DNA of 64,000 nt from Terriglobia bacterium. Its GTDB lineage: Bacteria; Acidobacteriota; UBA6911. The stretch covers positions 1-64,000 of the forward strand of contig JAIQGI010000005.1 of NCBI GenBank assembly GCA_020072565.1, in the 5' to 3' direction. Positions within the stretch are counted from its first letter, which is position 1, and every line of letters starts with the position of its first letter. Below, in pieces: positions 4,491 through 28,263 of the stretch. The position numbers and the translations under genes were made by a program. The notes beneath the pieces were generated by a model. It was not told where the DNA came from. It saw only the letters and a list, made by a program, of their open reading frames with translations, and made no database searches.

Positions 4491-4551
4491 CGATTTTTCA
4501 GTCATGCGATGCGAGGTCAGGCAAAAGGCGGAGTCTTGGCAGTCCCGGCTC

Positions 4552-4600
4552 ATTTTCCCCTTGACGATTGACAAGAGAAGCGCGATATTGCGCTTGTCAA
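4552..4600 (+). promoter_or_regulatory. Promoter and palindromic operator of PadR gene at 4619
   Basis: TTTTCCCCTTGACG supplies a -35 (TTGACG, 4561-4566). An imperfect palindrome AAGCGC-GATATT-GCGCTT at 4578-4595 covers the expected -10 region. A wider inverted repeat, TTGACAAG (4568-4575) against CTTGTCAA (4593-4600), encloses it. The arrangement is what an autoregulatory PadR operator would look like. The Shine-Dalgarno GAGGGG (4606-4611) follows. Confidence 0.65.
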
Positions 4601-4618
4601 TAATTGAGGGGAAAGCAG

Positions 4619-4948: not shown

Positions 4949-4960
4949 GGAACAGCCAAA

Positions 4961-7690: not shown

Positions 7691-7764
7691 GACTTCAGAA
7701 GAATAGGCAGATTTGAATGGCCGAACCTGAACCGAGAGCCGGCGGGCTGGGTCAGGCTCCCCAT

Positions 7765-7797
7765 TGCTATTGACTTGGTGCTTATGAAACGCCTTGA
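7765..7797 (+). pseudogene. Remnant of a PadR gene 3' end
   Basis: Bases from 7765 align with the last codons of the PadR gene at 4619: GCTATYGACTTGG, then GAAACGCCTTGAGGA in both, with a 2-base insertion in this copy that breaks the frame. The homology continues through the ribosome site and start of the downstream ADOP (CCAAAATGCCGCG). The rest of the PadR gene is gone. The upstream 70 bases show nothing else. Confidence 0.65.
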
Positions 7798-7809
7798 GGA
7801 GTGACCAAA

Positions 7810-10479
7810 ATGCCGCGATGGACATACACGTTGGTGGTTCGTCTACGCTCGTTATTCCGGGGCAGCAGAGTGGAGGCGGAACTCGACGAAGAGATTCGAT
7901 TCCACCTGGAAAATCAGATCGAAGAAGAGATCCGTCAAGGAATGACCCCGCAGGAAGCTCGTTTCCGAGCCCTGCGTATGTTGGGAGGCGTTGAGCAGCA
8001 CAAGGAAGAATGCCGCGACGCCCGCGGAGTTCGACTAATTCGCGACTTCCTTCAGGACGTGCGCTACAGCCTGCGCCAGCTGCGCCGTTCGCCCGGTTTT
8101 ACGGCCGCTGCCTTGCTCACGCTCGCCCTTGGCATCGGAGCCAACACAGCCATTTTTCAGCTGCTGGATCGCATCGTCCTGCGGCCGCTTCCGGTGCGGG
8201 ACCCCCAACAGCTCGTGCGGCTGCAGGGTTATCAAAACGCCCGCCAGCAGGGTTTCACCTATCCACTGCTGCGCGAAATGAGCGCCCGGCAGCACACTCT
8301 CCAGGGGATCTTCGCTTCGAGTCAATTCCGGATCAACGAGGCACGCATCGGCGGCCGATCGCTCACCATGCCGGAGGACGCCTGGGCCGTCACCGCTAAC
8401 TACTTCCGTTTGCTTAGGACCGAGCCTCAGCTCGGCCGCTTTTTCGACGAAACCGATGATGAACCCGGCGCCACGCCGGTAGCCGTTATCAGTGACCGGC
8501 TCTGGCGCAGTGATTTCGCCGGTCAGGCGGATGCTGTCGGCCGATCGATCTCTTTGAATGGCCTCCCGATCACAATTATTGGTGTCGCCCGGCATGAGTT
8601 TTTCGGCGAACGCATCGGCACCGTCGCGGACCTTTGGGTGCCCATTCATCTCATCGCGCCGCTCTCTTCGCCGGCCTTTCTGCAGTCGAGCGTCGTCTGG
8701 CTTCACCCCATGGCGCGTCTAAAACCCGATGTCCCGCTCGCGCAGGCTCAGTCCGAGATTGCGCTGCTTTGGGTGCAACTCAAACAGTTCGGCATGCAGA
8801 TCAAAGGCGCAGGCGAATACCGTCTGGAACTCAAACCAGCGCCCCAGGGTATCGGAGATCTGAATGCTCAGTTTTCCCGATCGCTTTGGCTGCTCATGGG
8901 CATCGTAGGAATTGTGGCGCTCATCGCCTGCAGCAACCTTGCCAACCTGTTCCTGGCACGCGGCACGGCGCGCGCCCAGGAAATGAGCGTGCGCCTGGCG
9001 CTCGGCGCCGGAAGGATTCGACTCATCCGCCAACTCATAACCGAGACACTTGTTCTGTCCGCGCTCGGAGGCGGAGCTGGGCTTGCGCTGGCGGCATTGG
9101 CCTCCAGCCAACTGGCAGCCCTTGCGTCAGCGGGTGAGAAATGGCAAATCTCGACCTTGCTCGACTGGCGCGTCGTCGGCTTCAACCTGGTCGCGACGCT
9201 AGCCTCCGCGGTTTTGTTCGGACTCGTCCCGGCTTTTACGGCGACCCGGGCCGAGCTGAGCGGGGCACTTCAGATGGGCAGCCGCACACTAAGCGCGAGC
9301 AAGTCACGCCGTGTTACGGCTAAGGCTTTCGTCGTCGCGCAAGTGGCGCTCTCGCTTGTCCTGACAGCCGGTGCAGCGCTCCTGGTCAGTTCCTTCTGGA
9401 AACTCACTCACCAGGATTTGGGCTTCCGCGCCAATGGCGTGCTGGTTGCCAATGTGGATGCGGATATGTCCGGTTTCAAGGACCTGCTTAACGCAAACAA
9501 ACATCAGGCTATCGTGCAGCTCTTGAGTGAGGTCCCGGGAGTGCGCTCCGCTTCTTCGGCTGTCGCCGGTCCCCTCGGGACGGTAACCAATGATATCGCC
9601 ATTGCATTGCCTGGGCGCTCATTTCCTTCAGGCGACATCAACGAAGTCCTGGTCGGCCCGGGCTATTTCGACGCCATGGGAATCCCGCTTATTGCAGGCA
9701 GGCCTATTACCGGCGTGGACCGTAAAGATGGGCCCAGGGTTGCCGTGCTCAGTGAATCAGCGGCCCGGCTTATGTTCGGCAAGCGGAATGCAGTCGGCTG
9801 CCTCTTTTCGGAGGGCAAGCAATTTGACGAAAAGAGGGCCGTTCAGGTGGTCGGTGTGGTTCATGATGTGCGTTACTCCTCCTTGCGCGCTCCCTTCGGC
9901 CCGCTGGTCTTCTACCCGGTCACTCAAAAATTCGTTTTCGGTAGTCCTACCTTCGTACTGCGAACTGAGGGTGATCCCCTGCGCTTCGCCGATGCGGTCC
10001 GCCAGGCAGTCCGTGAGGTTTCATCCGTCCTCCGCGTCTCCCAAATCCGCACGCTCGACTCGCTAATTGAAACGGGCGCCCGCCGCGAACGGCTCCTGGC
10101 CTGGCTCTCCGGCGCCTTCGGCGGTCTCGCCCTCATCCTTGCCGCCGTCGGGCTTTACGGCGTGGTCGCTTACGCTGTCGAACGCCGCACGCCTGAGATC
10201 GGAGTTCGCCTCGCCCTCGGCGCGCGGGCCTCACAGATACATGCGCTCCTTCTGAGCGAGATGATTATCCTGCTGGCCATCGGTCTCACGTTGGGCAGTG
10301 CCGCCACGTTCCTGTTCACGGCTCGGCTCGAACCGCTGCTGTTCGATGTCACACCGCAGAACCCTGCGACATTCGCCTTTGCCATGGTTGTGCTCGCGAC
10401 GATCGCGCTCGTCGCCGGCTACATTCCTGCCCGCCGTGCCGCCCGCCTCGACCCCGTGAGCGCATTGCGTTCAGAATAG
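7810..10479 (+). CDS. ADOP-family permease (889 aa), PadR partner lost
   Basis: The N-terminus (MPRWTYTLVVRLRSLFRGSR) is closely related to that of the ADOP at 4961, with the same HLENQI, EARFRALRMLGG and HKEECRDARG elements before TM1 (about 98-118). The first FtsX domain has CSNLANLFLARG and QEMSVRLALGAGRIRLIRQL; the second has [20 protein letters not shown]; the end is PARRAARLDPVSALRSE. ATG 7810 was chosen over GTG 7801 by alignment with the ADOP at 4961. Only a fragment of a PadR gene lies upstream, so expression now depends on read-through from 4.6 kb or an unseen promoter. Its last 160 bases recur at 17183. Confidence 0.93.
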   Translation: MPRWTYTLVVRLRSLFRGSRVEAELDEEIRFHLENQIEEEIRQGMTPQEARFRALRMLGGVEQHKEECRDARGVRLIRDFLQDVRYSLRQLRRSPGFTAAALLTLALGIGANTAIFQLLDRIVLRPLPVRDPQQLVRLQGYQNARQQGFTYPLLREMSARQHTLQGIFASSQFRINEARIGGRSLTMPEDAWAVTANYFRLLRTEPQLGRFFDETDDEPGATPVAVISDRLWRSDFAGQADAVGRSISLNGLPITIIGVARHEFFGERIGTVADLWVPIHLIAPLSSPAFLQSSVVWLHPMARLKPDVPLAQAQSEIALLWVQLKQFGMQIKGAGEYRLELKPAPQGIGDLNAQFSRSLWLLMGIVGIVALIACSNLANLFLARGTARAQEMSVRLALGAGRIRLIRQLITETLVLSALGGGAGLALAALASSQLAALASAGEKWQISTLLDWRVVGFNLVATLASAVLFGLVPAFTATRAELSGALQMGSRTLSASKSRRVTAKAFVVAQVALSLVLTAGAALLVSSFWKLTHQDLGFRANGVLVANVDADMSGFKDLLNANKHQAIVQLLSEVPGVRSASSAVAGPLGTVTNDIAIALPGRSFPSGDINEVLVGPGYFDAMGIPLIAGRPITGVDRKDGPRVAVLSESAARLMFGKRNAVGCLFSEGKQFDEKRAVQVVGVVHDVRYSSLRAPFGPLVFYPVTQKFVFGSPTFVLRTEGDPLRFADAVRQAVREVSSVLRVSQIRTLDSLIETGARRERLLAWLSGAFGGLALILAAVGLYGVVAYAVERRTPEIGVRLALGARASQIHALLLSEMIILLAIGLTLGSAATFLFTARLEPLLFDVTPQNPATFAFAMVVLATIALVAGYIPARRAARLDPVSALRSE

Positions 10480-14355: not shown

Positions 14356-17088
14356 GTGAACCTTTTCAGATGGCGGCACCACAAAGAGCAGGATCTTCAG
14401 GATGAGATTCACTCACACCTCGAGATGGCGATCCGCGATCGAGTGGAGCGGGGCGAGACAGAGGCCGAAGCCTCGTACGCGGTGCGTCGAGAGTTCGGGA
14501 ATGTCGAGCTGGTCAAGGAAATCACGCGGGACACTTGGGGATTCAGGTGGTTGGAACGGCTGCTGCGTGACTTTCGCCTTGTCCTGCGCGGCCTGGGCCG
14601 GGCACCCGGACCAGCCGTGCTCATCATCCTCACGCTGGGACTGGCCGTCGGCGCCAATTCCGCCACCTTCTCGTTGATCGATCGCGTCGCGTTGCGGCCG
14701 CTGCCCGTCGAGAAGCCGTACGAGATTGTGAGGGTGAACGCGCCCTTGCTTCCCTACGATCTGGGGGTGGGCGCCGTGATGAGGGGCAGCAGCAAAGTGA
14801 AGGGGATGGCCTACCCGCTCTTCCAATCGCTGCGCGCCGGCCTGTCGCGGCCGTTCAGTGCGATGGCCGCCTACCGGCCCTGGCGGTTCACCTTGTCGGC
14901 CGAACCATCGGCTGTCGAGATCTCCGGCGAATCGGTGACCGCCGACTACTTCCGGGTGCTCGGGCTCCACGCGCTCGTCGGACGGACCCTCACCCCCGCC
15001 GACGATGGGCAGCGCGACGGCCCGGCAATCGCCGTTCTCAACCACGGCTTCTGGATGCGACAGTACGGCAAAGATCAGTCAATCGTCGGCCGCACAATTC
15101 GCCTGAACAACGTCCCGCTCACCGTGGTTGGCGTCATCGCTCCCGGTTACTCCGGCATGACGGTGGGACAGCGTCCGGACGTGTTCGTGCCCGTCGCAAT
15201 GGGCGACCAGCTGGAGCCGTCGCGCCGCGCCCGATCGCCGCTCTATGCCTGGGACGGTGTAACCAATTCCGTGTACTACTCGATCGCGCGGCTGGCCCCC
15301 GGCGTGACGTGCGAGGCGGCGGAGCGCGAGGTGCGCGCCTGCTATCAGCGCCTGTTCGACGATGTTGTGCGCGGGAGGAAGAGCAAGCTGAGCGCAAGAA
15401 GCATGGAGTTCTATCGGGCCAATCCCCCGGAAGTGATTCCGGCGGGCACCGTCGGCAGCACCCTGTCCGGGACGCAACGCAACCTGGAGGCGCCGCTGCG
15501 GCTCCTGTTCGCGATGACGGCGTTGGTTCTCCTGGTCGCCGCGGGCAACGTCGCGAACCTACTGGCCGCATCCGGCGCCCGGCGCAGCCACGAGATGGCC
15601 GTGAGCCTTGCGATGGGTGCCCAGCGATGGGACCTGCTGCGTCCCCGCCTGGTCGAGGCCCTGATACTGGCGATCTTGTCGGGCGGGGCGGGCCTGCTGA
15701 TCGCGGCATGGACCGGCGACCTGATGCCGTCGCTGCTCGGCATGGGGGAGGAGCTCGCCGGCATCAACACGCGGCCCGACGCCCGCGTAGTCGTGTTCAC
15801 CACGGGCATGTCTCTCCTCACCGGACTGCTCATCTGGCTGGCATCGGCGCTGCTCGTCACGCGCCGCGCCGCGCTGCCCAGTCTCCACACTGCGCCGCGG
15901 GGCGCCGCCGGAGGGCGGCCCGGCGCGACGCTGCGGCGCGGCCTGGTGATCGCCCAGGTGTCGCTATCGCTCGCGCTTGTCTGCACGGCGGCGTTCCTCA
16001 ACCGCAGTCTTGCGAATGTGCTATCGGTTGATCCGGGATTCGACGCGGACCGCGTCGTCGGCTTCACCGTCAATCCTCGAGCGGCCGGCTACGACGGCAA
16101 TCGACTCGAGCAGTACGTGCGCACGCTCGTCGACCGTGCGCGCGCACTGCCCGGTGTTTCGCACGTCGCGGTGTCGTCGGTGATGCCCCTGTCGGGGGGC
16201 GGTGGAGACACGCAGGTAGATGGACCGCGCCAACAGGAGGGCCACGCCGCCGCGCCATGGGTGGAAGACACGGTGGTGTCGCCCGACTTCTTTACGACCC
16301 TTGGCCTCGGCCTGACCGCCGGCCGGGCCTTCGACGACCACGACACGAAGGGAGCGCCGCGCGTCGCCATTGTCAACGAGACGGCCGCGCGACTCCTGGT
16401 GGACGGTCCGGAGGTCGTCGGCCAGATGATCGGGTATGAGGGCGTGCCGGCCAGCCTGCAGATCGTCGGCGTGGTGCGCGACGGCCGGAGCCGGCTCAAG
16501 GCGCCGCCCCCGCCCGCCCTCTTCCTCCCGCGCGCCCAGACGAACGCGAGCGGTGTCAGCGTTCTCCTGCGGGTCCCGCGCGCCGAGATGGTGTCGGCGG
16601 CCGCTGTCACCGAAATGGTCAGGCGGCTCGATCCAGGCGTCGCGATGTCGGCGTTCGGAAGTCTTGGCACGCTGGCGCGGGATGCGTTGCTGCGCGACCG
16701 GATGCTGGCGGGGCTGTCGCTGGTGTTTGCGTCGCTCGCCGGCCTGCTGGCGGCAATAGGACTTGCCGGCCTCACCAGCGTCAACGTCACGTGCCGGACA
16801 CGCGAGATCGGCATTCGACTGGCGCTCGGCGCGACCCGCGGATCGGTGGAACGACTCGTTCTGCGGGAAGTCGCGCTGCTGATGGGCGCAGGCCTCGCCG
16901 CCGGCCTCACGTTCTTCCTTTTGGCGAACCGGGTTTTGCGGTCGCTGCTGTTCGATATCTCGCCCAACGACCCGGTTACGATCGTGCTGGCGATTGCCGC
17001 GCTTGCTGCCATCGGCGTCCTCGCCGGCCTGCTCCCCGCCCGTCGGGCGGCCCGCGTCGATCCGGCGGTGACGCTGAGGTGCGACTGA
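14356..17088 (+). CDS. ADOP-family permease (910 aa)
   Basis: The N-terminal module is short and acidic (MNLFRWRHHKEQDLQDEIHS) with HLEMAIRDRVERG and EASYAVRREFGNVELVKEIT before the first membrane helix at about 96-116. The first FtsX domain carries AAGNVANLLAASGARRSHEM; the second carries TREIGIRLALGATRGSVERL; the C-terminus is PARRAARVDPAVTLRCD, with a cysteine-aspartate ending where most copies have SE or NE. It starts with GTG, placed by the AAAGGAGT site eight bases upstream. It has high GC at third positions, like the ADOP at 11024. Its regulator is the adjacent PadR at 13996. Confidence 0.93.
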   Translation: MNLFRWRHHKEQDLQDEIHSHLEMAIRDRVERGETEAEASYAVRREFGNVELVKEITRDTWGFRWLERLLRDFRLVLRGLGRAPGPAVLIILTLGLAVGANSATFSLIDRVALRPLPVEKPYEIVRVNAPLLPYDLGVGAVMRGSSKVKGMAYPLFQSLRAGLSRPFSAMAAYRPWRFTLSAEPSAVEISGESVTADYFRVLGLHALVGRTLTPADDGQRDGPAIAVLNHGFWMRQYGKDQSIVGRTIRLNNVPLTVVGVIAPGYSGMTVGQRPDVFVPVAMGDQLEPSRRARSPLYAWDGVTNSVYYSIARLAPGVTCEAAEREVRACYQRLFDDVVRGRKSKLSARSMEFYRANPPEVIPAGTVGSTLSGTQRNLEAPLRLLFAMTALVLLVAAGNVANLLAASGARRSHEMAVSLAMGAQRWDLLRPRLVEALILAILSGGAGLLIAAWTGDLMPSLLGMGEELAGINTRPDARVVVFTTGMSLLTGLLIWLASALLVTRRAALPSLHTAPRGAAGGRPGATLRRGLVIAQVSLSLALVCTAAFLNRSLANVLSVDPGFDADRVVGFTVNPRAAGYDGNRLEQYVRTLVDRARALPGVSHVAVSSVMPLSGGGGDTQVDGPRQQEGHAAAPWVEDTVVSPDFFTTLGLGLTAGRAFDDHDTKGAPRVAIVNETAARLLVDGPEVVGQMIGYEGVPASLQIVGVVRDGRSRLKAPPPPALFLPRAQTNASGVSVLLRVPRAEMVSAAAVTEMVRRLDPGVAMSAFGSLGTLARDALLRDRMLAGLSLVFASLAGLLAAIGLAGLTSVNVTCRTREIGIRLALGATRGSVERLVLREVALLMGAGLAAGLTFFLLANRVLRSLLFDISPNDPVTIVLAIAALAAIGVLAGLLPARRAARVDPAVTLRCD

Positions 17089-17182
17089 CGGGGGGCCGCT
17101 CGCATCCAGACCGTGCTCCCAGTGGTCGCCCTCAGAACCGGACACCCGATAGTACAGGGTGGATATCCCGAAACATGCCTTC

Positions 17183-17344
17183 ATGGTTCGGCTCGAACCG
17201 CTGCTGTTCGACGCCACATCGCAAGATCCTGCGACATTCGCCTTTGCCATGGTTGCGCTTGCGACGATCGCGCTCGTCGCCCGCTACATCCCTGCCCGCC
17301 GTGCCGCCCGCCTCGACCCCGTGAGCGCATTGCGTTCAGAATAG
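17183..17344 (+). pseudogene. Orphan C-terminal fragment of an ADOP gene
   Basis: These 160 bases encode only the last membrane segment and closing motif of an ADOP (RLEPLLFDATSQDPATFAFA through PARRAARLDPVSALRSE and TAG). They match the end of the ADOP at 7810 (bases 10319-10479) with only about a dozen differences. The 94 bases between it and the preceding ADOP hold nothing recognisable. It is a leftover of a duplicated and deleted copy. Confidence 0.85.
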
Positions 17345-17527
17345 CGGATTCAAAACACCTGCGACCTGCGCTTAGGATGCTGCGGATAATCGTCCACGAT
17401 GCGAGATCGTTGAGAAAACAGGTTCGAGATCGAACCAGGAGCGGCCCCGAAGGCAGTGGATCCACGGGGTAACGCGCCGCAACGCGGGGCGCAATCACGT
17501 CAGGCGAAAGAGCAAGTGAAAAATATG

Positions 17528-17554
17528 TTGACAAATCCTACTATATTTTAGTAG
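17528..17554 (+). promoter_or_regulatory. BlaI/MecI-type operator and promoter element
   Basis: CTACTA-TATTT-TAGTAG (17538-17554) is a perfect inverted repeat with six-base arms. It has the TACTA/TAGTA half-sites typical of operators bound by BlaI/MecI/CopY-family repressors. It lies four bases after a TTGACA box (17528-17533), so bound repressor would occlude polymerase. A strong ribosome site AGGAGGT (17570-17576) and ATG 17580 follow. The 17345-17527 stretch before it holds no gene. Confidence 0.8.
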
Positions 17555-17579
17555 CGTAACAAACGTTATAGGAGGTCGC

Positions 17580-17978
17580 ATGGCCAGGACCAAATTCACC
17601 AAGCTCGAACTGCACATCCTCGAGGCGCTCTGGGCGTACGGGAAGGCCTCCATCCGCGAAATCCAGGAGGCGTTTCCCGAACCTCGGCCCGCCTACACCA
17701 CGATACAAACGACCGTGTACCGGCTCGAAGGCAAGAAGGCTGTCCGCCGCGTCCGGAAAATCAGCAACGCGCACATCTTCGAACCCCTCGTGGCGCGCGA
17801 TGTGACCAGGCGCGGGCTGCTCGACGAGATCCTGAGCTTCTTTGGCGGAAAGGCCCAGCCGATGATGGCGCAACTCGCCGAAGCGGGGAAGCTCACCCGT
17901 GACGATGTCCGCGAGCTGGAGCGCATCATTAAGGAGCGCGACGAACGGGAACACGAAAAGGGATGGAGGTCGAAATGA
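17580..17978 (+). CDS. BlaI/MecI/CopY-family transcriptional repressor
   Basis: This 132-residue protein has the family winged helix: TKLELHILEALWAYGKASIR at about 7-26, EIQEAFPEPRPAYTTIQTTV (recognition helix) at about 27-46, YRLEGKKAVRRVRK, then a C-terminal dimerisation domain (about 75-130). Such repressors keep a downstream membrane protease gene silent until that protease triggers their cleavage. Here the stop codon overlaps the M56 peptidase start (ATGA, 17975-17978), so repressor and protease are coupled as in blaI-blaR1. Autoregulation is supported by the palindrome 26 bases upstream of the start. Confidence 0.92.
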   Translation: MARTKFTKLELHILEALWAYGKASIREIQEAFPEPRPAYTTIQTTVYRLEGKKAVRRVRKISNAHIFEPLVARDVTRRGLLDEILSFFGGKAQPMMAQLAEAGKLTRDDVRELERIIKERDEREHEKGWRSK

Positions 17979-19825
17979 TCGCTGTCCTTCTGAACCATCT
18001 CTGGCAATCAACGCTCTTCGTGCTCGCGGCCACAATTACCGCGGCGGCGCTGCGAAAAAACAGCGCGCACATTCGGCACGGCGTGTGGGTGATCGCGTCG
18101 CTGAAGTTCCTGGCGCCGTTCTCTTTGTTAATGAGCCTGGGCTCGGCGCTGCCCTCGTTCACGCCGGCGGCGGCCGCGATCGCGGACACGACGACGGCTG
18201 CTGCGCCCGCTTTGCCGCTCACGGTCGACCGATTCGCGCAGCCGTTCACGGGCGATGACTTCGTGTCGACGATCACCATACGCGCAACGGCATCGACGAC
18301 GAACTGGATGCCGATGGTGCTGCTCGCCATATGGGCGATCGGACTCCTGGCCGTGGCGTGGACGCGCCTCCGCGGCTGGCAGCGCATTCGCGCGCTCGTC
18401 CGTCAGAGTACGCCCGTCGCGCTGCGAAGTCCGATTCCCGTTCGGTCTTCGCCGGGTTCCCTCGAACCGGGTGTTGTCGGCATCTGGAGTTCCGTGCTGC
18501 TCATGCCGGCGGGCATCGAACAACGTCTCACGCCGTCGCAGTTCGACGCCGTGTTCGCGCACGAGCTGTGTCACGTTCATCGTCGCGACAACCTCACCGC
18601 CGCGATTCATATGGTCGTCGAAACCGTGTTCTGGTTTCACCCGCTGGTCTGGTGGATCGGAGCCCGGCTGGTCGAGGAACGCGAGCGCGCCTGCGACGAA
18701 TACGTGCTCCGCGCATTCGGGGAGCCGCAGACCTATGCGGAGAGCATCCTCAACGTCTGCAAGCTCTACGTCGAGTCGCCGCTGCCGTGCGTCTCCGGCG
18801 TCAGCGGATCGGACTTGAAGAAGCGTGTCGCGGCCATCATGGTCAATCACATCGGCACGCGATTGAACCTTGCGCGCAAGACAGCGCTGACGCTCGCGGC
18901 GATCCTTGCGATCGCGCTGCCGCTCATTGTCGGGATGTTGACGCCGGCCATTCGCGCGTCGTCGCCGCAAGAACCGGTAGTCTTTGTCGCCAGACCTCAG
19001 ACGCGCCCTTCGTTTGAGGCGGCTTCTATCAAGCTTGCTCCAAACTGCGACGCAACCCGTCCCGCGCGCTTCTTACATGACAGGATAATTCTGCCATGCA
19101 CGACGCTTCGAGCCCTTATCCGGAACGCATATACCCCATTTTCCGGCGGAAGACTCCCAGCAACCCGTATTGAGGTGCTTGGTTTGCCAAGCTGGACAGA
19201 GAAGGATACCTATAATGTGGAGGCGAAGGCTGAATCCAATGCATCCCTTGCACAGATGCTGGGGCCCATGCTGCAAGCGCTCCTCGAAGACAGATTTCAA
19301 TTGAAAGTTCACAAGGAGTTCAGAAACAAGCCTGTCTACGAACTGACCGTGGCAAAGAGCAATCCCAATATGCGGCCTTCAAAAAAGGGAAGCTGTATTC
19401 CGAGGGACGATAACAGCATTATAGCGGGTTCCGCCAATCCTGCCGAAATGTTTAAGACCAGATATTGTGGCATCGCGCCGTTCACGTCCAAAGGTTCGAC
19501 TTGGAGCACCGATTGGTATGGGGTAAGTATGTCCGAGCTTGCCGATATGCTTCAAATCGCCCGCTTGGATCGCACCGTAATTGACAGGACCGGACTTACG
19601 GGGCGATTTGATTTCCACCTGGAATTTGTCCGCGAGCGCACCAGTTCGGGTGTGGTTACTCTTAATGGCGTTCCTGTGCCCGCTGACTCAATTCCATCGG
19701 TTGATGCAATGGGGCCGTCAATCTTTACCGCCCTGAAGGAACAACTCGGATTGCGACTTTCTCCCGCTAATGGTCAAGTAGCAGTGCTTGTCATTGATCG
19801 TGTGGAGAAGCTCTCCCCGAATTAG
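17975..19825 (+). CDS. M56 family peptidase (BlaR1-type) fused to TIGR03435 domain
   Basis: This 616-residue inner-membrane protein has membrane helices near 5-25, 35-58, 112-130 and 304-324. Its M56 zinc-protease domain carries HELCH at 196-200 and the third ligand region ERERACDEYV (E242). In BlaR1/MecR1 the periplasmic end is a penicillin-binding sensor. Here residues 346-616 form a Soli_TIGR03435 domain starting PSFEAASIKLAPNCD. It therefore has the architecture of a transmembrane sensor-protease acting on the BlaI-type repressor just upstream. ATG 17975 was preferred to ATG 17963 because GGAGG precedes it and it gives the ATGA overlap. DNA beyond about 18950 is visibly less GC-rich than the protease part. 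Confidence 0.9.
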   Translation: MIAVLLNHLWQSTLFVLAATITAAALRKNSAHIRHGVWVIASLKFLAPFSLLMSLGSALPSFTPAAAAIADTTTAAAPALPLTVDRFAQPFTGDDFVSTITIRATASTTNWMPMVLLAIWAIGLLAVAWTRLRGWQRIRALVRQSTPVALRSPIPVRSSPGSLEPGVVGIWSSVLLMPAGIEQRLTPSQFDAVFAHELCHVHRRDNLTAAIHMVVETVFWFHPLVWWIGARLVEERERACDEYVLRAFGEPQTYAESILNVCKLYVESPLPCVSGVSGSDLKKRVAAIMVNHIGTRLNLARKTALTLAAILAIALPLIVGMLTPAIRASSPQEPVVFVARPQTRPSFEAASIKLAPNCDATRPARFLHDRIILPCTTLRALIRNAYTPFSGGRLPATRIEVLGLPSWTEKDTYNVEAKAESNASLAQMLGPMLQALLEDRFQLKVHKEFRNKPVYELTVAKSNPNMRPSKKGSCIPRDDNSIIAGSANPAEMFKTRYCGIAPFTSKGSTWSTDWYGVSMSELADMLQIARLDRTVIDRTGLTGRFDFHLEFVRERTSSGVVTLNGVPVPADSIPSVDAMGPSIFTALKEQLGLRLSPANGQVAVLVIDRVEKLSPN

Positions 19826-19969
19826 GAGGAGCAACCTCGAAGGTGCTCTTTACATTCTGCAGATTGGGAATTATGCCCAAACAATCTTGTTTTGCGAAGG
19901 AAACCCATTGAAAAGGCAAACGGAAAATTCACTCCGTCCGCGTCCAGGAAACAAGCGAAGGAGGTCGAT

Positions 19970-21820
19970 GTGCTTGCTACCCTCATGAACCATCTCTGGC
20001 AATCATCGCTCTTCGTGCTCGCGGCCGCGATTACCGCGGCGGCGCTGCGGAAGAATGGCGCGCACATTCGGCACGGCGTGTGGGTGATCGCGTCCCTGAA
20101 GTTCCTGGCGCCGTTCTCTTTATTAATGAGCCTGGGCTCGGCGCTGTCCTCGTTCACGCCGGCGGCGGCCGTCATCGCGGACACGACGACAGCGGCTGCG
20201 CCCGCTTTGCCGCTCGCAGTCGACCGCTTTGCGCAGCCGTTCACAAGCGATGACTTCGTGCCGGCGGGCACGATGCGCGCAACGGCATCGACGACGAGCT
20301 GGATGCCGATGGTGCTGCTCTCCTTATGGGGGATCGGATTCCTGGCCGTGGCGTGGACGCGCCTCCGCGGATGGCAGCGCATTCGCGCGCTCGTCCGTCA
20401 GAGTACGCCCGTCGCGCTGCAAAGTCCGATTCCCGTTCGGTCTTCCTTGGGCCTCCTCGAACCGGGTGTTGTCGGCATTCGGCATCCCGTGCTGCTCGTG
20501 CCGGCAGGCATCGAACAGCGTCTCACGCCGTCGCAGCTTAACGCCGTGTTCGCGCACGAACTGCGTCACATCCAGCGTCGCGACAACCTCACCGCCACGA
20601 TTCATATGGTCGTCGAAGCCGTGTTCTGGTTTTACCCGCTGGTCTGGTGGATCGGCGCCCGGATGGTCGCCGAACGCGAGCGTGCCTGCGACGAGCACGT
20701 GCTCCGCGCCTTCGGTGAGCCGCAGAGCTACGCGGAGAGCATCCTCAACGTCTGCAAGCTCTACGTCGAGTCGCCGCTGCCCTGCGTCTCCGGCGTCAGT
20801 GGTTCGGACCTGAAGAAGCGCGTCGCGGCCATCATGGCTAGCCGCATCGGCGCGCGATTGAACTTCGCGCGCAAGACGGCGCTTGCGCTCGCCGCGATCC
20901 TTGCGATTGCGCTGCCGCTTGTCGCCGGGATGCTGACCGCCCCCTTTCGCGCACCGGCACTCGGACTGCCCCAAGGTGGCGCGGCGACGACGGGACAATC
21001 GCCGCCGGCGAGTTTCGAGGTCGTCTCGGTCAGGGCCTGCGATCCCAACGCGGTGTCGCCTGGCGGCCGCGGCGGCTGGGCGGGAGCGGTGTCTCCGGGA
21101 AGACTGCGGCTGGATTGTCAGAACCTGGAAGCTTTGATTCGCTTGGCGTATTTCGTCAACGCGAACGGCCGCTTCAATCCGCCAGGGACATACCCGAGCA
21201 TCGAGTGGTCCAAGGAGTCTGAACGGCTGAAGTTCGAACGATTCACGATTGAAGCGAAGGCCGATGGCACGCCACTGGCCGCGGTCATGCGGGGTCCGAT
21301 GCTGCAGGCGGTTCTCGAGGATCGATTCAAGCTGAAAGTCCATTACGAAACCCGCGAGGTGCCCGTCTACGAGCTCGTCGTCGCCAAAGGCGGCTCGAAG
21401 TTGACACCGTTCAAGCCGGGCGCCTGCGTCCCGATCGATTGGAACTCGTACCCACCGCCGCCCCTCGAACCAGGCCAGCGCCGGTGCCAGAACTCAACAT
21501 CGAGAGACGACAGCGACAGATACTGGGTGGAAACCGCCGAAGCGACGACGCTCGATGAATGGGTAACAGGGATCCGCGGGCCCGACCGCGACCGGCCGGT
21601 TGTCAACAAGACCGGGCTTACGGGACTGTTCGCCTTCCGTCTCGTCTACGAAAACCACGACGACTTTGTCGCCGGGCTCAAGAACCAGCTCGGATTGGAG
21701 CTGCGAGGGGCGACGGGGCCGCAGCGGATCTTGGTGATCGACCACGTCGAGCGGCCGACGCCGAACGCCGCATCAGCGATCGGCAACCCGCCAAGGCCAA
21801 GGCGGGTCGTATCCCGCTGA
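19970..21820 (+). CDS. Second M56 peptidase fused to a different TIGR03435 domain
   Basis: This is a tandem paralogue of the same length, 616 residues. Residues 1-325 are nearly identical to the upstream gene, including HELRH at 196-200 and ERERACDEHV, whereas the periplasmic TIGR03435 domain (about 344-616, from ASFEVVSVRACDPNA) is clearly divergent. GTG 19970 is chosen as start: AAGGAGGT lies four bases upstream and the protein then aligns end to end with its neighbour; an upstream ATG at 19892 would add 26 unrelated residues. The 144-base gap after the first gene shows no operator. The pair probably shares the BlaI-type repressor at 17580 but presents two different sensor domains. Confidence 0.9.
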   Translation: MLATLMNHLWQSSLFVLAAAITAAALRKNGAHIRHGVWVIASLKFLAPFSLLMSLGSALSSFTPAAAVIADTTTAAAPALPLAVDRFAQPFTSDDFVPAGTMRATASTTSWMPMVLLSLWGIGFLAVAWTRLRGWQRIRALVRQSTPVALQSPIPVRSSLGLLEPGVVGIRHPVLLVPAGIEQRLTPSQLNAVFAHELRHIQRRDNLTATIHMVVEAVFWFYPLVWWIGARMVAERERACDEHVLRAFGEPQSYAESILNVCKLYVESPLPCVSGVSGSDLKKRVAAIMASRIGARLNFARKTALALAAILAIALPLVAGMLTAPFRAPALGLPQGGAATTGQSPPASFEVVSVRACDPNAVSPGGRGGWAGAVSPGRLRLDCQNLEALIRLAYFVNANGRFNPPGTYPSIEWSKESERLKFERFTIEAKADGTPLAAVMRGPMLQAVLEDRFKLKVHYETREVPVYELVVAKGGSKLTPFKPGACVPIDWNSYPPPPLEPGQRRCQNSTSRDDSDRYWVETAEATTLDEWVTGIRGPDRDRPVVNKTGLTGLFAFRLVYENHDDFVAGLKNQLGLELRGATGPQRILVIDHVERPTPNAASAIGNPPRPRRVVSR

Positions 21821-21920
21821 TTCATTATGGACCTGACCAGTGGAAAGGCGCATGGGCCGGTCCATTTGGGCCCGGAAGCGCGGCAGCGAACGTTAAGAGA
21901 TTTGCGCGCCGGAGGCGAAA

Positions 21921-22195
21921 ATGAGAAGCCCCAGCATTCTGATTCTGTTGACCGCCTTCGCCTGGCGTACGGCGTTCGGACAATTGCCCTCCCCAAAACG
22001 GTATCCGAGGCCGCCTCAGTCAAGCCTGCTATTACACGTAATGCGGGCTCAGCGGCCGGCCCGCGGTCAACAGGCGCTCCACCCGCTTCGCCCCAGGGTG
22101 ATCCGATTCTGGTTATCTACGCTGGCATTGCTCTCAAGGACCTCTTGATCAGGGCTTACGGTCTGCGATCACACCAGATCGTTGGGCCCTCTTAG
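21921..22195 (+). pseudogene. Truncated TIGR03435 family gene
   Basis: GGAGGCGAAA precedes ATG 21921, and the first codons encode a plausible signal peptide (MRSPSILILLTAFAWRTAFG). The family motif EAASVKPA and the later ALKDLLIRAYGLRSHQIVGP continue in another frame, up to a stop at 22195. A frameshift near 21980 and a premature stop leave about 90 of the normal 250-300 residues. This looks like the end of a third member of the tandem array. Bases 21821-21920 and 22196-22261 show nothing further. Confidence 0.65.
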
Positions 22196-22261
22196 CTCGA
22201 GAGAGCAGCAAACGAACTCTGTTACCGAGTCAAGTGACAGTCACTCGAAAGACGACCCATT

Positions 22262-25200
22262 ATGAACGAATCGAGTAGCATGAGTTACGTTCGACAGATT
22301 GCTCTTGCGGCCGCCGCATGCCTGTGTCTCCTTTCCCTCGGCGCTGCGAGCCTGGCGGCCTCGGAACATCACGGACAGGTGAAGTTCGCAGGCGTGCCTG
22401 TGCCCGGCGCTACGGTCACTGCGGTCCAAGGCGAGAAGAAACTTGTAACCATCACAGACGCCATGGGGAACTACTCGTTTCCCGATCTTTCCGATGGAGT
22501 CTGGACGATTCAGGTCGAAATGCTTTGTTTTTCGGCCGAGAGACGGGACATGACCATCGCGGCGGAGGGGAGCGCTGCGGAATGGGAGCTGAAGCTGCTC
22601 CCGCTGAAGGAAATCAATGCGGAAACCAGAATGCTTGCGGTATCCGAGGCCGCATCAAAGCCGCAATCCGGTGTTTCTGCCGGTGCGAAGGATGCGAATA
22701 GACTCAAAGGCCTGCAAGTAGAGCCTCGCAAGGCCGAACCAGCGCAGCCGCCGGGAGCCAATGCGCAGGGGAGCTTTCAGCGCGCTGAGTTGAACGCTGC
22801 TGCAGCCGATGCTTCGGTGGGCGCCGCGGCAACGGATCGCGATTCGGGGGCGTTCAGAGGCCAGAGCTCCGACGAGCTAGTCCAGCGCGCCTCCGACGGC
22901 TTTCTCATCAACGGCAGCGCCAATAACTCAGCCAGTTCTCCTTTTGCCCTGAGGCCCGCGTTCGGCAACATGCGCAAAGGCATGCGGTCGCTTTACAGCG
23001 GTAACTTTGGCCTGGTCCTGGACAACTCCGCGTTGGACGCACGCTCGTATTCCTTCACCGGGCAGAACACGGCCAAGCCGTCCTACAATCGCCTGTCGGG
23101 CTCGGCTTCGTTCGGCGGCCCGCTGAGGATTCCGCACCTGATGACAAATGGGCCCATGTTTGTGGTCACCTACCAGTTTGCGCGAAACCGCAATGCCACG
23201 ACGCAACCGGGCCGGATGCCGACGCTGGCGGAGCGCGGCGGAGATTTCTCGCAGACCGTGAATTCCCTCGGGCAGCCGGTGCAGATCTTTGATCCCACGA
23301 CCGGCTTGCAGTTTCCCGGCAACGTCGTGCCGAAGGATCGAATCAGTCCTCCGACCAAAGCTCTATTGGACCTTTATCCACCCGCGATGTTTGCCGGCAG
23401 CGATCGCTACAACTATCAGATCCCCATCGTCGGGACTTCTCATATGGATGGAGTCCAATCTCGTCTCAGCCGCACAATCGGCCGCAACAATTATCTCTCC
23501 GGCGGCTTCGAATATCAGTCGACGCGTTCGAGCAGCCCGAACCTTTTCGGCTTTCTGGATAAATCGAATTCTTCGGGCATCAATGGGAACGTCAACTGGA
23601 GGCGCAGCTTCACGATGCGGTTCGTGATGAATTTCGGCTACCAGTACAGCCGCATGGTTTCCAGAAACACGCCGTTCTTCTCGAGCCGCCGCAATGTTTC
23701 CGGCGAGGCCGGGATCTCCGGCAACAACCAGGATCCGATAAACTGGGGGCCGCCGAACCTGTCGTTCTCGGGCGGCGCGACGGGATTATCCGATGCGCAG
23801 GCGTCCTTCAACCGCAATCAGACAAACTCGTTCACCTCCAGCACGTTCTGGAGTCGCGGCCGCCATGGCATGACCTGCGGGGCAGATTTCCGGAGGCAGC
23901 AGTTCAACTACCTGGCGCAGCAGGATGCGCGCGGCTCGTTCATGTTTACGGGTGCGGCCACGCAAGCCAGAGTGAATGGCATTGCGGTGCCGGGCACGGG
24001 CTACGATCTGGCCGATTTCATTCTGGGAATACCCGACACCAGTTCGATCGCCTACGGCAATGCCGACAAGTACTTTCGCGCGTCCATGTACGACGCCTAC
24101 TTCACCGACGATTTCAGGGTCAATTCGGAATTTACCTTGAACATAGGGCTGCGCTGGGAATACGGCTCGCCGATCACTGAGCTGTACGGCCGCCTGGTAA
24201 ACCTTGACATTGCCCCCGGCTTTACGGCCGCAGTCCCTGTGATTGCGTACGATCCGGTCGGCGGCATCACGGGGCAAACATATCCTGACTCCCTCGTTCA
24301 TCCGGACAAACACGCCTTCCAGCCGCGCATCGGCATCGCCTGGCGCCCGTTCCCCGCGTCATCGCTGGTCATTCGCGCCGGCTACGGCATTTATTTCGAC
24401 ACTTCAGTCTATAACGCCATTGCCATGCAGATGGCCCAGCAATCGCCGCTATCGAAGAGCCTCAGCGTGCAGAACAGCCCGGATCACCCGCTCACTCTGG
24501 CAAACGGGTTCTACAGTTCTCCGGCGACCACGCCCCAGATCTTTGCCGTCGATCCGAACTTGCGCGTCGGTTACGTGCAAACCTGGCAGCTTTCCATTCA
24601 GCGCGATCTGCCGTTTGCGCTGCAGATGAACGCCACGTACCTGGGGAACAAAGGCACGCGAGGGATGCAGCGGTTTGTGCCCAACACGTATCCTGCCGGA
24701 GTGACGAGTCCCTGTCCTTCCTGTCCGGCGGGATTCATTTATCTGACCTCGAACGGCAACTCGAACCGGCACGCCGGACAGATTCTACTACGGCGGCGGC
24801 TGCACAACGGCTTTACCGCTACCCTTGCGTACACTTTCTCGAAATCGATCGACGACGCTGCAATCGGCGGACGGGGTCAGGGAAGTGCGGTGATCGCGCA
24901 AAACTGGCTCGATCTCAGCGCGGAGCGTGCTCTGTCGAACTTCGATCAACGTCATCTGATGAACCTGCAGCTGCAGTACGCAAGCGGAACAGGTGTAGCC
25001 GGCGGCATGCTGATGGGCGGCTGGAGGGGACGACTCCTGAAGGAATGGACTTTTGCCTCGCAGATCACGGCAGGCAGCGGTCTTCCCCTGACGCCCGTTT
25101 ATCCTGGAGCCGTCGGCGGGACCGGGGTCACCGGGCCGCTGCGGCCGGACTACACAGGAGCCTCGCTTTATGCTGCTCCGCAGGGACTTTTTCTGAATCC

Positions 25201-25474
25201 GCTCGCTTACGTCGCTCCAGCCGCAGGTCATTGGGGAAATGCCGGCAGGAACTCGATTGCCGGTCCTGCCCAGTTCTCGCTGATCGCCTCGATGGGCCGC
25301 ACGTTTCGGGTGCGAGATCGCATCAGCCTCGATCTCCGCATAGACGCCACAAATGCGTTCAATCATGTCACCTTCATCAGCTGGAACACAATGGTGGGCG
25401 GCCCGCAATTCGGCCTGCCGAACGGCGCCGGTCCAATGCGCAGCATGCAAACCACTCTGCGGGCGAGGTTTTAA
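22262..25474 (+). CDS. Oar-like TonB-dependent receptor family protein (1070 aa)
   Basis: A signal peptide (about 1-33) is followed by a carboxypeptidase-regulatory beta-sandwich (about 36-115, with GVPVPGATVTA and TDAMGNYSFPDL), a low-complexity linker (about 120-270) and an outer-membrane beta-barrel of about 800 residues. The barrel begins near SGSASFGGPLRIP and ends in the terminal aromatic LRARF. Proteins of this acidobacterial type sit in the outer membrane and bind large substrates. A typical plug with the usual LPLNGRN motif is not recognisable in the linker, in contrast to the receptor at 51555. It is one base upstream of the VWFA gene, implying an operon. The substrate is not evident. 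Confidence 0.85.
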   Translation: MNESSSMSYVRQIALAAAACLCLLSLGAASLAASEHHGQVKFAGVPVPGATVTAVQGEKKLVTITDAMGNYSFPDLSDGVWTIQVEMLCFSAERRDMTIAAEGSAAEWELKLLPLKEINAETRMLAVSEAASKPQSGVSAGAKDANRLKGLQVEPRKAEPAQPPGANAQGSFQRAELNAAAADASVGAAATDRDSGAFRGQSSDELVQRASDGFLINGSANNSASSPFALRPAFGNMRKGMRSLYSGNFGLVLDNSALDARSYSFTGQNTAKPSYNRLSGSASFGGPLRIPHLMTNGPMFVVTYQFARNRNATTQPGRMPTLAERGGDFSQTVNSLGQPVQIFDPTTGLQFPGNVVPKDRISPPTKALLDLYPPAMFAGSDRYNYQIPIVGTSHMDGVQSRLSRTIGRNNYLSGGFEYQSTRSSSPNLFGFLDKSNSSGINGNVNWRRSFTMRFVMNFGYQYSRMVSRNTPFFSSRRNVSGEAGISGNNQDPINWGPPNLSFSGGATGLSDAQASFNRNQTNSFTSSTFWSRGRHGMTCGADFRRQQFNYLAQQDARGSFMFTGAATQARVNGIAVPGTGYDLADFILGIPDTSSIAYGNADKYFRASMYDAYFTDDFRVNSEFTLNIGLRWEYGSPITELYGRLVNLDIAPGFTAAVPVIAYDPVGGITGQTYPDSLVHPDKHAFQPRIGIAWRPFPASSLVIRAGYGIYFDTSVYNAIAMQMAQQSPLSKSLSVQNSPDHPLTLANGFYSSPATTPQIFAVDPNLRVGYVQTWQLSIQRDLPFALQMNATYLGNKGTRGMQRFVPNTYPAGVTSPCPSCPAGFIYLTSNGNSNRHAGQILLRRRLHNGFTATLAYTFSKSIDDAAIGGRGQGSAVIAQNWLDLSAERALSNFDQRHLMNLQLQYASGTGVAGGMLMGGWRGRLLKEWTFASQITAGSGLPLTPVYPGAVGGTGVTGPLRPDYTGASLYAAPQGLFLNPLAYVAPAAGHWGNAGRNSIAGPAQFSLIASMGRTFRVRDRISLDLRIDATNAFNHVTFISWNTMVGGPQFGLPNGAGPMRSMQTTLRARF

Positions 25475-25475
25475 A

Positions 25476-27572
25476 ATGAGGCTGATCGCGACAGCAACTC
25501 TGTTTTTATGGACTATTGCTTCGGAAGGGCAGCAGGTCGGCCAGAACGCGCCCATGACCGCGACGCCGCAGACCACGTTTAAGACGAGCACCCAACTTGT
25601 GATCGAGAACGTCGCCGTCACGGACAAAAGCGGCAACTCGATCGAGGGCTTGACAGCCAAGGATTTCACGGTCACGGAAGACGGCGTGCCCCAGGAGATC
25701 ACTGTCTTTGAATACCAGAAGCTGCCTGAGGCTCCGGACACGACCCCGACGTTGGAGCCAGTCCGGCCGATACTCCTCGATAAGCTGCCTCGCACCCAGA
25801 TCTCGCCCGAAATGTCGGGTAAGATCAAATACAGCGATCGTCGCCTCCTGGCACTGTACTTCGACATGACCGCAATGCAGTCTCCCGACCAGCTGCGCGC
25901 GCTAAACGCGGCCATCAGGTTTGTGCACACGCAGATGACGCCTGCGGACCTGATATCGATGTTCATGTTTTCCGGTGGCGCGGTCCGCGTGCTGTCGGAC
26001 TTTACCGCCGATCGGGACCGGCTGCTGAGCATCATCGAGACCATGATCGTCGGCGAAAATGAGAACGCCGAGGCGATCCCGGACGATGCGGACACCGGCG
26101 CGGCCTTCGGCCAGGACGACAGCGAGTTCAACATCTTCAACACCGATCGCCAGCTGGCCGCGCTCCAGACAGCAGTGAGCTATCTATCAACTCTGAGCGA
26201 GAAAAAATCGCTTATTTATTTCGCCAGCGGCTTGAGGCTGAGCGGCGTCGATAATCAGGCGCAATTGCAGGCTACTATCAACGCCGCGATCCGCGCGGGG
26301 GTCTCTTTCTGGCCGATCGACGCGCGCGGCCTGATGGCTCAGGCTCCCATGGGAGACGCCACCCGGGGATCGCCGGGCGGCGTGTCGATGTATACGGGCG
26401 GCGCCGCCATGGCGATGATGACGAACTTCCAGAGGTCACAAGATACGCTGTGGGCCCTGGCAGCCGATACCGGCGGTAAGTCTCTGCTCGACAGCAACGA
26501 CCTGGCGCGGGGAATCGTCGAGGCGCAGAAAGCCACCTCCAGCTATTACATCATCGGTTATTACGCCAGCAACGCGGCTCTGGACGGCAAATTCCGCCGG
26601 ATTAGGATCTCGCTCAACAACGGGCAGCCCGCCTCTTTGGACTATCGCCAGGGCTATTATGCCGGCAAACTGTTCGAGAAGTTTACCGCTGCAGACAAAG
26701 AAAGGCAGCTGGAGGAAGCGCTGATGTTGGGCGATCCGATCACGGAGCTCACCATCGCCATGGAGATCGACTACTTCCAGCTGAACCGTGCCGAATACTA
26801 CGTACCGCTGGTGGTGAAGATTCCTGGGCGGGAGCTGGCGCTGGCCCGGCGCAGCGGCGCCGAGCACACGCTTATTGATTTTATCGGCGAGGTGAAGGAC
26901 GACTACGGCACGACCATCCGGAACGTGCGCGACAAGGTGGACATCAAGCTGAGTGACGCAACCGCCGCGGAACTGGCGAAACGTCCGATTCAATACGACA
27001 CCGGTTTTACCCTTCTTCCGGGAAAATACAAGATCAAGTTTCTGGCGCGCGATGCCGAAACCGGCAGAATCGGGACTTATCAGACCAACTTCACGATCCC
27101 GAATCTGAACCGGGAGGAGATACGGATTCCGATCAGCTCGGTGGTTCTGAGCAGCCAGCTTGTCTATCTCCGGGATGCTCTTTATAGCGTAGGGAAAGAC
27201 AAGGCTCGGGAAAAGATCAATGCCGTGAATCCCCTGGTGCATGAGGGGATGAAGCTGATTCCCAGTGTGACGCGGGTGTTCAGCCAATCCCGGGACATGT
27301 ACGTCTATCTGCAGGCTTACGACCGGGCCACGCCAAGCCTCCAGCCGCTGGTGGCATATGTTACTTTCTTCAGAGGGCAGACCAAGGCGTTTGAAACGGC
27401 GCCGCTCGAGGTGACCGACACTCCCGGCCCCGTTTCGAAGGCGATGGATTTGCGGTTCAGCTTATCTCTCAGCAAACTACCTCCCGGCGAATACATCTGC
27501 CAGGTAACGGTGATCAGCCCGAGCGGCCGGAAAGTCGCATTCTGGCAAGCCCCGATCATGCTCATCCAATAG
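25476..27572 (+). CDS. VWFA-related acidobacterial domain protein (TIGR03436)
   Basis: This 698-residue secreted protein has a signal peptide (about 1-19), a family opening domain (TQLVIENVAVTDKSGNSIEG, TAKDFTVTEDGVPQEITVFE at 38-82) and a von Willebrand A-like domain (about 122-400) in which the first metal site reads DMTAMQ at 130 instead of the classical DxSxS. The YYIIGYYASNAALDGKFRRI block and GYYAGK follow, and the C-terminal 250 residues form beta-rich segments. ATG 25476 follows the receptor stop by one base, with GAGG upstream, so the two are co-translated. VWA domains usually mediate protein contacts; association with the receptor is suggested only by context. Confidence 0.88.
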   Translation: MRLIATATLFLWTIASEGQQVGQNAPMTATPQTTFKTSTQLVIENVAVTDKSGNSIEGLTAKDFTVTEDGVPQEITVFEYQKLPEAPDTTPTLEPVRPILLDKLPRTQISPEMSGKIKYSDRRLLALYFDMTAMQSPDQLRALNAAIRFVHTQMTPADLISMFMFSGGAVRVLSDFTADRDRLLSIIETMIVGENENAEAIPDDADTGAAFGQDDSEFNIFNTDRQLAALQTAVSYLSTLSEKKSLIYFASGLRLSGVDNQAQLQATINAAIRAGVSFWPIDARGLMAQAPMGDATRGSPGGVSMYTGGAAMAMMTNFQRSQDTLWALAADTGGKSLLDSNDLARGIVEAQKATSSYYIIGYYASNAALDGKFRRIRISLNNGQPASLDYRQGYYAGKLFEKFTAADKERQLEEALMLGDPITELTIAMEIDYFQLNRAEYYVPLVVKIPGRELALARRSGAEHTLIDFIGEVKDDYGTTIRNVRDKVDIKLSDATAAELAKRPIQYDTGFTLLPGKYKIKFLARDAETGRIGTYQTNFTIPNLNREEIRIPISSVVLSSQLVYLRDALYSVGKDKAREKINAVNPLVHEGMKLIPSVTRVFSQSRDMYVYLQAYDRATPSLQPLVAYVTFFRGQTKAFETAPLEVTDTPGPVSKAMDLRFSLSLSKLPPGEYICQVTVISPSGRKVAFWQAPIMLIQ

Positions 27573-27769
27573 CGCGCAACGCCGCTACAATCCAGGCTCC
27601 GCCCGGTATTAGAAGCTCGCTCCGGCCACGCCCACAAGCGTGTCCTCCTGCCCTGCTCGAAGCCGGCAACGGCCCCTCGATCCGCGGAGGCGCATCCATC
27701 TTCATATGCGCTGGCCCCACCGACAAGGAAGTGGCAGAAATCCGAGAAGGAACGATCCCGCCCGCTGCA

Positions 27770-27990
27770 TCGCGGATGCGGCGGGAGCGGTCGGCGGCTG
27801 CTACACTCTCGGCTACTACACGAAGAACACCGCGAGCGACGGAAGGTACCGCCGCGTGAAGGTGATGCTCGCCGATCGGGTCGCAGCGGACCTGTCCTAT
27901 CGCCAGGGGTACTACGGCGAGAAGGACTACAGCAAGTTCAACGCCTTTGACAAGGAGCGCCAGTTCGCCGAGGCGCTCAGGCTCACCAAA
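27770..27990 (+). pseudogene. Fragment of a second VWFA-related gene
   Basis: The frame reads GGCYTLGYYTKNTASDGRYR, then ADRVAADLSYRQGYYGEKDY and FDKERQFAEALRL. It aligns with the middle of the VWFA protein just upstream (YYIIGYYASNAALDGKFRRI, LDYRQGYYAGKLF, ADKERQLEEALML) but has no start, no N-terminus and no C-terminus. It is joined directly to the thioredoxin-like tail at 27991. Bases 27573-27769 contain only unrecognisable sequence. Confidence 0.75.
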
Positions 27991-28197
27991 CGATTCTCCC
28001 TTGCCCTCCTCACAGTGGATGGACGACGACTGAGTACGGGTTCATGTTGTCGCCCACGACGGTGCTGCTGGACCAGCAAGGCCGCGCGATCATGCGGCAC
28101 ATTGGATTCAGCCTCGCACGCGTGCGCGCGATCGAGGCAGGAATCAACAGATTGCTGCTGCAGGGAACGAAAGCGAGGTAAGGCGCTTTGCTTTCTC
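27991..28197 (+). repeat. 207-bp repeat, copy 1: thioredoxin-like gene tail
   Basis: This block is nearly identical to 41503-41710. One frame reads EYGFMLSPTTVLLDQQGRAI then MRHIGFSLARVRAIEAGINR and a stop at about 28180. The pattern PTTVLLDQQGR is that of the cis-proline and following strand of TlpA/redoxin-type thioredoxin folds, but the catalytic N-terminus is missing in both copies. Each copy lies just beyond the stop codon of a minus-strand ADOP gene. Confidence 0.7.
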
Positions 28198-28263
28198 TTG
28201 GTGAGGTAGTGCTCTGCCAATCGATGACGCGCGTGACGGGCCTGCGCCATCCTGTCCAATGAG

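Follow-up and report, generated by a model that had tools for sequence, protein, structure and literature searches.

A BlaI/BlaR1-like locus of Acidobacteriota with two M56 proteases that carry different TIGR03435 domains

The BlaI/BlaR1 and MecI/MecR1 systems are the closest described relatives of the locus reported here. They combine a BlaI-family repressor, acting at a palindromic operator, with an adjacent M56 membrane protease that carries a penicillin-binding domain behind its last membrane helix. In the structure of BlaR1 from S. aureus (PDB 8EXP-8EXT), the critical residues are the HExxH and ExxxD motifs together with an Asp, a Tyr and an Arg (PMC9834060). The extra domain of the proteins considered here belongs to two curated families, DUF3738 and TIGR03435 (the latter a paralog family, 'TIGR03435 family protein'), whose entries are silent on function, operator, operon and domain exchange. 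These two families are known already, and Pfam notes the occurrence of DUF3738 with M56. The initial annotation of this DNA had known of no assigned function for TIGR03435, which agrees with our literature search: no paper was found that names TIGR03435 or DUF3738, and none that treats BlaR1/M56 together with Acidobacteria or Solibacter.

Layout of the locus and its proteins

The window, by which we mean the whole stretch of DNA analysed, comprises 64,000 nucleotides of contig JAIQGI010000005.1 (assembly GCA_020072565.1) from a Terriglobia bacterium. Its positions 17528-21820 hold, behind a perfect BlaI-type operator, the genes of a BlaI-family repressor and of two M56 proteases, each with a C-terminal TIGR03435/DUF3738 domain, all three genes being on the forward strand. 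The repressor (132 aa, 17580-17978) matches Penicillinase_R (PF03965, E=7e-23) over residues 7-119, which is its full length. Protease 1 (17975-19825) consists of an M56 part (17996-18838) fused to a TIGR03435 domain (18998-19825). Its gene and that of the repressor overlap by ATGA, and because of this the best start is 17975 rather than 17963, which is also possible. Protease 2 (19970-21820), most likely starting at the GTG at 19970 behind a GGAGG, has an M56 part at 19991-20833 and a TIGR03435 domain at 20993-21820 (domain match 21011-21778). The two M56 parts are 88% identical in amino acid sequence, whereas the two TIGR03435 domains are only 40% identical. The initial annotation had drawn just this picture, with a repressor overlapped by a protease, a second protease nearly identical in its protease part and differing in TIGR03435, and one repressor for the two proteases in the window, and each of these elements is borne out.

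Just upstream of the operon lies an ADOP-family permease (TIGR03434, 14356-17088), and many more large ORFs, 850-950 aa long, form series to either side of the operon (1650-10476 and 28267-50053); these may be ADOP-family permeases too. A search of 16900-28200 for RNA regulators gave no Rfam match.

Proteins 1 and 2 respectively match M56 (PF05569; E=8e-33 and 1.6e-32), DUF3738 (E=7e-46 and 6.8e-28; 157 and 98.5 bits, against a curated cut-off of 22) and TIGR03435 (E=3.5e-51 and 2e-36; 174 and 126 bits, against a curated cut-off of 40). A profile of the fusions aligns to residues 33-321 of S. aureus BlaR1 (E=4e-18), without the penicillin-binding part. The generic BlaR1 model scores 88 bits against a cut-off of 400, and Pfam and NCBIfam-type profiles find no penicillin-binding or β-lactamase domain in either protein. 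The six best PDB matches to a full-length model of protein 2 (pTM 0.51) are all BlaR1. Their TM-scores are low (0.24-0.31 on the query), as is to be expected when half of the protein has no counterpart and the orientation of the domains is uncertain. The TIGR03435 domain follows directly behind the last predicted membrane helix, on the same side as the BlaR1 sensor. The claim that it occupies the place of the penicillin-binding domain is thus upheld by both sequence and predicted fold, the match to BlaR1 covering the membrane-protease half alone.

The proposed BlaI/BlaR1-type chassis also retains the catalytic residues of BlaR1. HExxH is found in 99 of 99 members of the M56-TIGR03435 set and ExxxD in 97 of them, and the Asp that follows HExxH, the Tyr and the last-helix Arg likewise have equivalents, also in the M56 part of protease 1. 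What is missing is the Phe at which BlaR1 cleaves itself (P1' of Ser283-Phe284), the corresponding loop reading CVSGVTGSDLKxR, and therefore activation must differ in detail from that of BlaR1. Since both this residue and the penicillin-binding domain are absent, these proteins would work in a BlaR1-like manner without being BlaR1. On the side of the repressor, the position of the scissile bond was putatively placed by an alignment of our own to MecI, whose scissile bond is N101-F102. In the relatives this position is Leu in 73 of 77 and Phe in 4; the family motif is His/Gln-Leu, with Gln-Leu in the window (Q|L at the putative scissile bond).

Structure prediction had been put forward as a way to approach TIGR03435. 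The domain of protein 1 is predicted confidently by AlphaFold2 (mean pLDDT 88.5), but no solved structure matched it (best E against the PDB 0.77), and a search for solved relatives by sequence yielded chance matches only. The domain is composed of two halves of similar secondary structure, which align weakly with one another (hhalign P 0.0008-0.005). The order of strands and helices hinted at an STN/secretin-type domain. This was rejected, there being no support from profiles or fold: neither STN nor secretin occurs among the families listed for 144 members, and the genome has one STN domain, too few for a profile comparison. It is worth adding that a thioredoxin-like (Redoxin/AhpC-TSA) protein with a C-terminal TIGR03435 domain is encoded on contig C58 (L046, 3946-5229, reverse strand), that other genomes of the phylum repeatedly contain stand-alone frames of similar size (404-463 aa) which match TIGR03435 weakly, and that two consecutive TIGR03435 domains, with or without M56, are found at L104, L127, L147, L189 and L195.

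Operator and downstream genes

The operator CTACTATATTTTAGTAG (17538-17554), predicted from sequence, is an exact palindrome of the form CTACTA-N5-TAGTAG, as initially described, and no other site in the window comes within 2 mismatches of it (0.13 sites expected). A TTGACA on the forward strand (17528-17533), likely the -35 box of the operon promoter, lies 4 bp ahead of it; no good -10 box was recognised in the window promoter. In relatives, the best operator match upstream of BlaI is at least 10/12 in 38 of 77 regions (1.6 in shuffles) and 12/12 in 14 of them (none in shuffles). It sits near -58 relative to where the BlaI domain starts, with a spacing of 5 in the clade near the window and of 6 in many other relatives. 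TTGAC stands immediately ahead of the operator in 13 of the 18 related loci with an N5 operator, an adjacency that fits a repression acting through promoter blocking.

The 7.46 Mb genome (135 contigs) contains two copies of the perfect operator, each before an operon of BlaI and two M56-TIGR03435 genes, one in the window and the other at C21:74315. As the perfect operator is restricted to such operons in this genome, the circuit seems to control its own operon, and control in cis is the most likely arrangement, judged from the perfect sites. The question of the regulon is in part answered by these sites; functional sites of weaker match are possible. One-mismatch sites are no commoner than those of a reversed-pattern control, and a wider regulon based on operator matches was rejected. 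Of six other genomes, one lacks the perfect operator, four have a single copy, placed before BlaI, and one has two copies, the second of which is away from any BlaI gene and looks like chance. One of the one-mismatch matches, at C1:30302, was discarded as a regulon site, falling within a gene. Another, CTACCACATTGTAGTAG (L044 9621-9637, C64:25120), is located ~150 bp upstream of a 434-aa gene for a TolB-like protein; it may be a chance match, because one-mismatch sites do not exceed the control.

Behind the proteases in the window come, on the same strand, a broken TIGR03435 gene, an Oar-like gene and a VWA gene. The first (21921-22195; E=0.001, below the cut-off) is the remnant of a stand-alone secreted TIGR03435 gene: the start of a signal peptide is in one frame and the start of the domain in another, followed by a stop, so that about a quarter of the domain is left. 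It lies within the 441 bp gap between protease 2 and the Oar-like outer-membrane protein (CarboxypepD_reg and OMP_b-brl_4, 22262-25474), which is the likely output of the operon. Right behind the stop of the latter is the ATG at 25476 of a VWA protein of family TIGR03436 (25476-27572, E=5e-73). In relatives, a TIGR03436 VWA gene often follows Oar, and stand-alone TIGR03435 genes often precede it.

An Oar-like gene is the commonest downstream gene, being found on the same strand within 4.5 kb in 26 of the 58 modules that have 4.5 kb of downstream sequence (CarboxypepD_reg and OMP_b-brl_4 were confirmed where scanned), and it lies within 150 bp or overlaps in 12 of 28 Oar-bearing modules. It also adjoins the sister operon on C21. 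The genome has ~37 Oar genes, which by our own estimate gives a chance of ~1% for one per such stretch, and no Oar gene was found in 12 other BlaI/M56 regions examined in this genome. The remaining 32 modules have no nearby Oar gene, and co-evolution of TIGR03435 with Oar was rejected, since the two trees do not co-vary specifically (partial Mantel r=0.12, p=0.27); the sensed entity is thus not necessarily Oar. Other neighbours of the modules include a thioredoxin-like protein (L140) and, in a Terriglobia genome, a β-lactamase-family hydrolase (PF00144; L135, 9730-11601) directly behind BlaI-M56-TIGR03435.

Distribution and exchange of the TIGR03435 domain

TIGR03435 is found in 44 of 396 sampled genomes of the same phylum, and its distribution is therefore patchy. 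An alignment of thirteen fusions, used to scan 84,980 species genomes, gave 80 loci, all labelled Acidobacteriota except one contig filed under Phycisphaerae. In clusters with at least 600 bases upstream, chosen by protease motifs and not by BlaI, a BlaI gene (by profiles built for this analysis) is present within 500 bp upstream of M56-TIGR03435 in 77 of 82. A second M56 without an intervening BlaI is found in 15 places, eight of them having two complete M56-TIGR03435 genes. BlaI with M56-TIGR03435 is thus a standard module in this group, and tandem forms of it are common; the arrangement in the window is not a local oddity but recurs across Acidobacteriota. Among the carriers of the module are the culturable relatives Terriglobus roseus DSM 18391 and Granulicella sp. 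S156.

The genome studied here contains five TIGR03435 domains: two in the window, two in the C21 operon, which has the same layout, and one on C58. Between the two operons, the repressors have 92% identity (dS 0.30) but the downstream Oar barrels only 45% (dS 1.6), so that the BlaI-protease chassis has been shared recently, unlike the sensors and the output, which differ. None of ten M56 proteins encoded elsewhere in the genome has TIGR03435, and several carry TonB_C, CarboxypepD_reg, GWxTD or DUF4412 instead; given this variety of extra domains, M56 looks like a general chassis. In all, the genome has ~17 BlaI-type repressors and 15 M56 matches (L210-L221, on contigs C67, C16, C8, C39, C9, C25, C47, C43, C15, C2 and C46).

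Surprisingly, tandem copies have the protease in common time and again while differing in the sensor. In the window, the M56 parts are 91% identical in nucleotides (dS 0.18), while the TIGR03435 parts are 47% identical, with synonymous sites saturated. In six of the eight complete tandem pairs, M56 is 76-88% identical and TIGR03435 38-46%, the break being at the junction; the C21 pair diverges evenly, and the L096 pair is old in protease and sensor alike. Sister pairs in the M56 tree are L130, L154, L163 and L207 (support 97-100); L185 belongs to a group of three (92), and the pair of the window to a clade of four genes from this genome (100), whereas in the TIGR03435 tree only L207 among these six is still a pair. 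Within M56, the L163 pair has a tract of 99% nucleotide identity, of the kind that gene conversion leaves. At L130, proteins 1 and 2 share the sensor and not the protease, and proteins 2 and 3 share the protease and not the sensor; compared in this way, the proteins of L130 show recombination exactly at the junction, in both directions, which decides the matter for that locus. In the window, GC3 is 54.7% in the TIGR03435 part of protease 1, as against 81.5% in its own M56 part and an average of 72% for the window genes, which suggests that this sensor was brought in.

Proposed mechanism, alternatives and known systems

We propose, with a probability of roughly 0.6, that the locus is a self-regulating envelope operon, in which sensing by TIGR03435 would activate the protease, the protease would bring about cleavage of BlaI, and loss of BlaI would release a surface operon. 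What the analysis establishes is the layout and its conservation, the operator, the set of catalytic residues and the exchange of domains; the chain of events that follows is inferred. In this chain, BlaI would repress its own promoter while bound next to the -35 box. The M56 proteins would be inner-membrane zinc proteases facing the cytoplasm, each with its TIGR03435 domain in the periplasm, where a state of the envelope or a ligand could be read. BlaI would then be cut near the Gln/His-Leu site and the operon switched on, yielding more BlaI and proteases and, if co-transcribed, the Oar-like barrel and the TIGR03436 VWA protein; in many relatives secreted TIGR03435 proteins would also be induced. 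With one repressor answering to two proteases whose TIGR03435 domains differ, the circuit would amount to an OR gate. The protease half would be a fixed chassis, copied or gene-converted, with sensor domains exchanged by recombination at the junction. A more far-reaching version, in which TIGR03435 is a new periplasmic sensor fold of a phylum-wide BlaR1-like class, with exchangeable cassettes and with secreted TIGR03435 proteins as partners or decoys, is possible but tentative.

A sensor role is our best reading of TIGR03435, but the domain might instead be an anchor or adaptor, binding to peptidoglycan, to the outer membrane or to a secreted TIGR03435 partner, with the protease answering another cue, for example through its own membrane part or through partner binding. 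This we consider doubtful. TIGR03435 is mostly found alone and secreted (in the loci gathered, 109 domains stand alone and 101 M56 genes are fused) and also on thioredoxin-like domains, so it has a use without any protease. However, it takes the place of the BlaR1 sensor, a position in which other M56 proteins of the genome bear other extra domains, and the repeated swapping of this half alone fits a change of specificity. It is very improbable that the system is a true sensor of β-lactams or cell-wall damage, TIGR03435 detecting peptidoglycan fragments in the stead of the penicillin-binding domain. The combination of BlaI with a BlaR1-type protease and the hydrolase gene at L135 would be in keeping with such a sensor, but neither protein has a penicillin-binding or β-lactamase domain, and most neighbouring genes encode surface proteins rather than β-lactamases.

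As for the exchange of sensors, the window pair could have arisen by plain tandem duplication, its TIGR03435 domains having diverged fast under positive or relaxed selection. TIGR03435 does outpace M56 in non-tandem pairs too (median ~34% identity where M56 is 55-60% identical), and AU tests, run on 32 rows, do not reject sister TIGR03435 domains either for the window pair (p 0.27) or for L163 (p 0.28). The same tests nevertheless reject sister sensors for L130 (proteins 2 and 3, p=7e-5) and L154 (p=0.013), and rapid divergence is contradicted for both of these loci, for L130 also by its two-way exchange. Moreover, synonymous sites differ as well (dS 0.18-0.8 in M56, against saturated or 1.9 in TIGR03435), identity breaks at the junction, the conserved tract of L163 lies in M56, and the sensor of protease 1 has a foreign GC3. 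Divergence without exchange is therefore improbable for the window.

Soil Acidobacteriota encode many copies of TIGR03435, a family of no known function. The constant position of the domain after a protease of the BlaR1 type, together with BlaI and the operator, gives it a directly testable role, and BlaI and the operator also offer a reporter assay with which its ligand could be sought. That the protease stays constant as sensors are exchanged also suggests a broader role for the BlaR1 architecture, as a general platform for sensing at the envelope; the detection of β-lactams would be one case of this.

In comparison with the literature found, what is new is the phylum-wide circuit, the operator, the Oar/VWA operon and the exchange of sensors. 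Both sensor domains score far above the cut-offs of DUF3738 and TIGR03435, families of which most gathered members stand alone. The TonB-receptor STN signalling of the FecA/FecR type resembles the proposed circuit in having a periplasmic domain that controls an operon for an outer-membrane barrel, but TIGR03435 has no match to STN, and FecA/FecR uses an anti-sigma factor, whereas here the signal would pass through an M56 protease and a repressor. The other BlaI/M56 modules of the same genome have an M56 chassis too, mostly next to BlaI, but with another kind of extra domain, and they lack TIGR03435, the CTACTA operator and an Oar gene. The closest likeness is to BlaI/BlaR1 and MecI/MecR1, with which the locus has in common a BlaI-family repressor beside an M56 membrane protease, the HExxH and ExxxD motifs and active-site Asp, Tyr and Arg, an extra domain behind the last membrane helix, and a palindromic operator, here a predicted one, at the promoter. 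It differs from them in that TIGR03435 replaces the penicillin-binding domain, the autocleavage Phe is lacking, the cleavage-equivalent site of the repressor has Leu in place of Phe, the likely output is an Oar/VWA surface operon, and there are often two proteases to one repressor.
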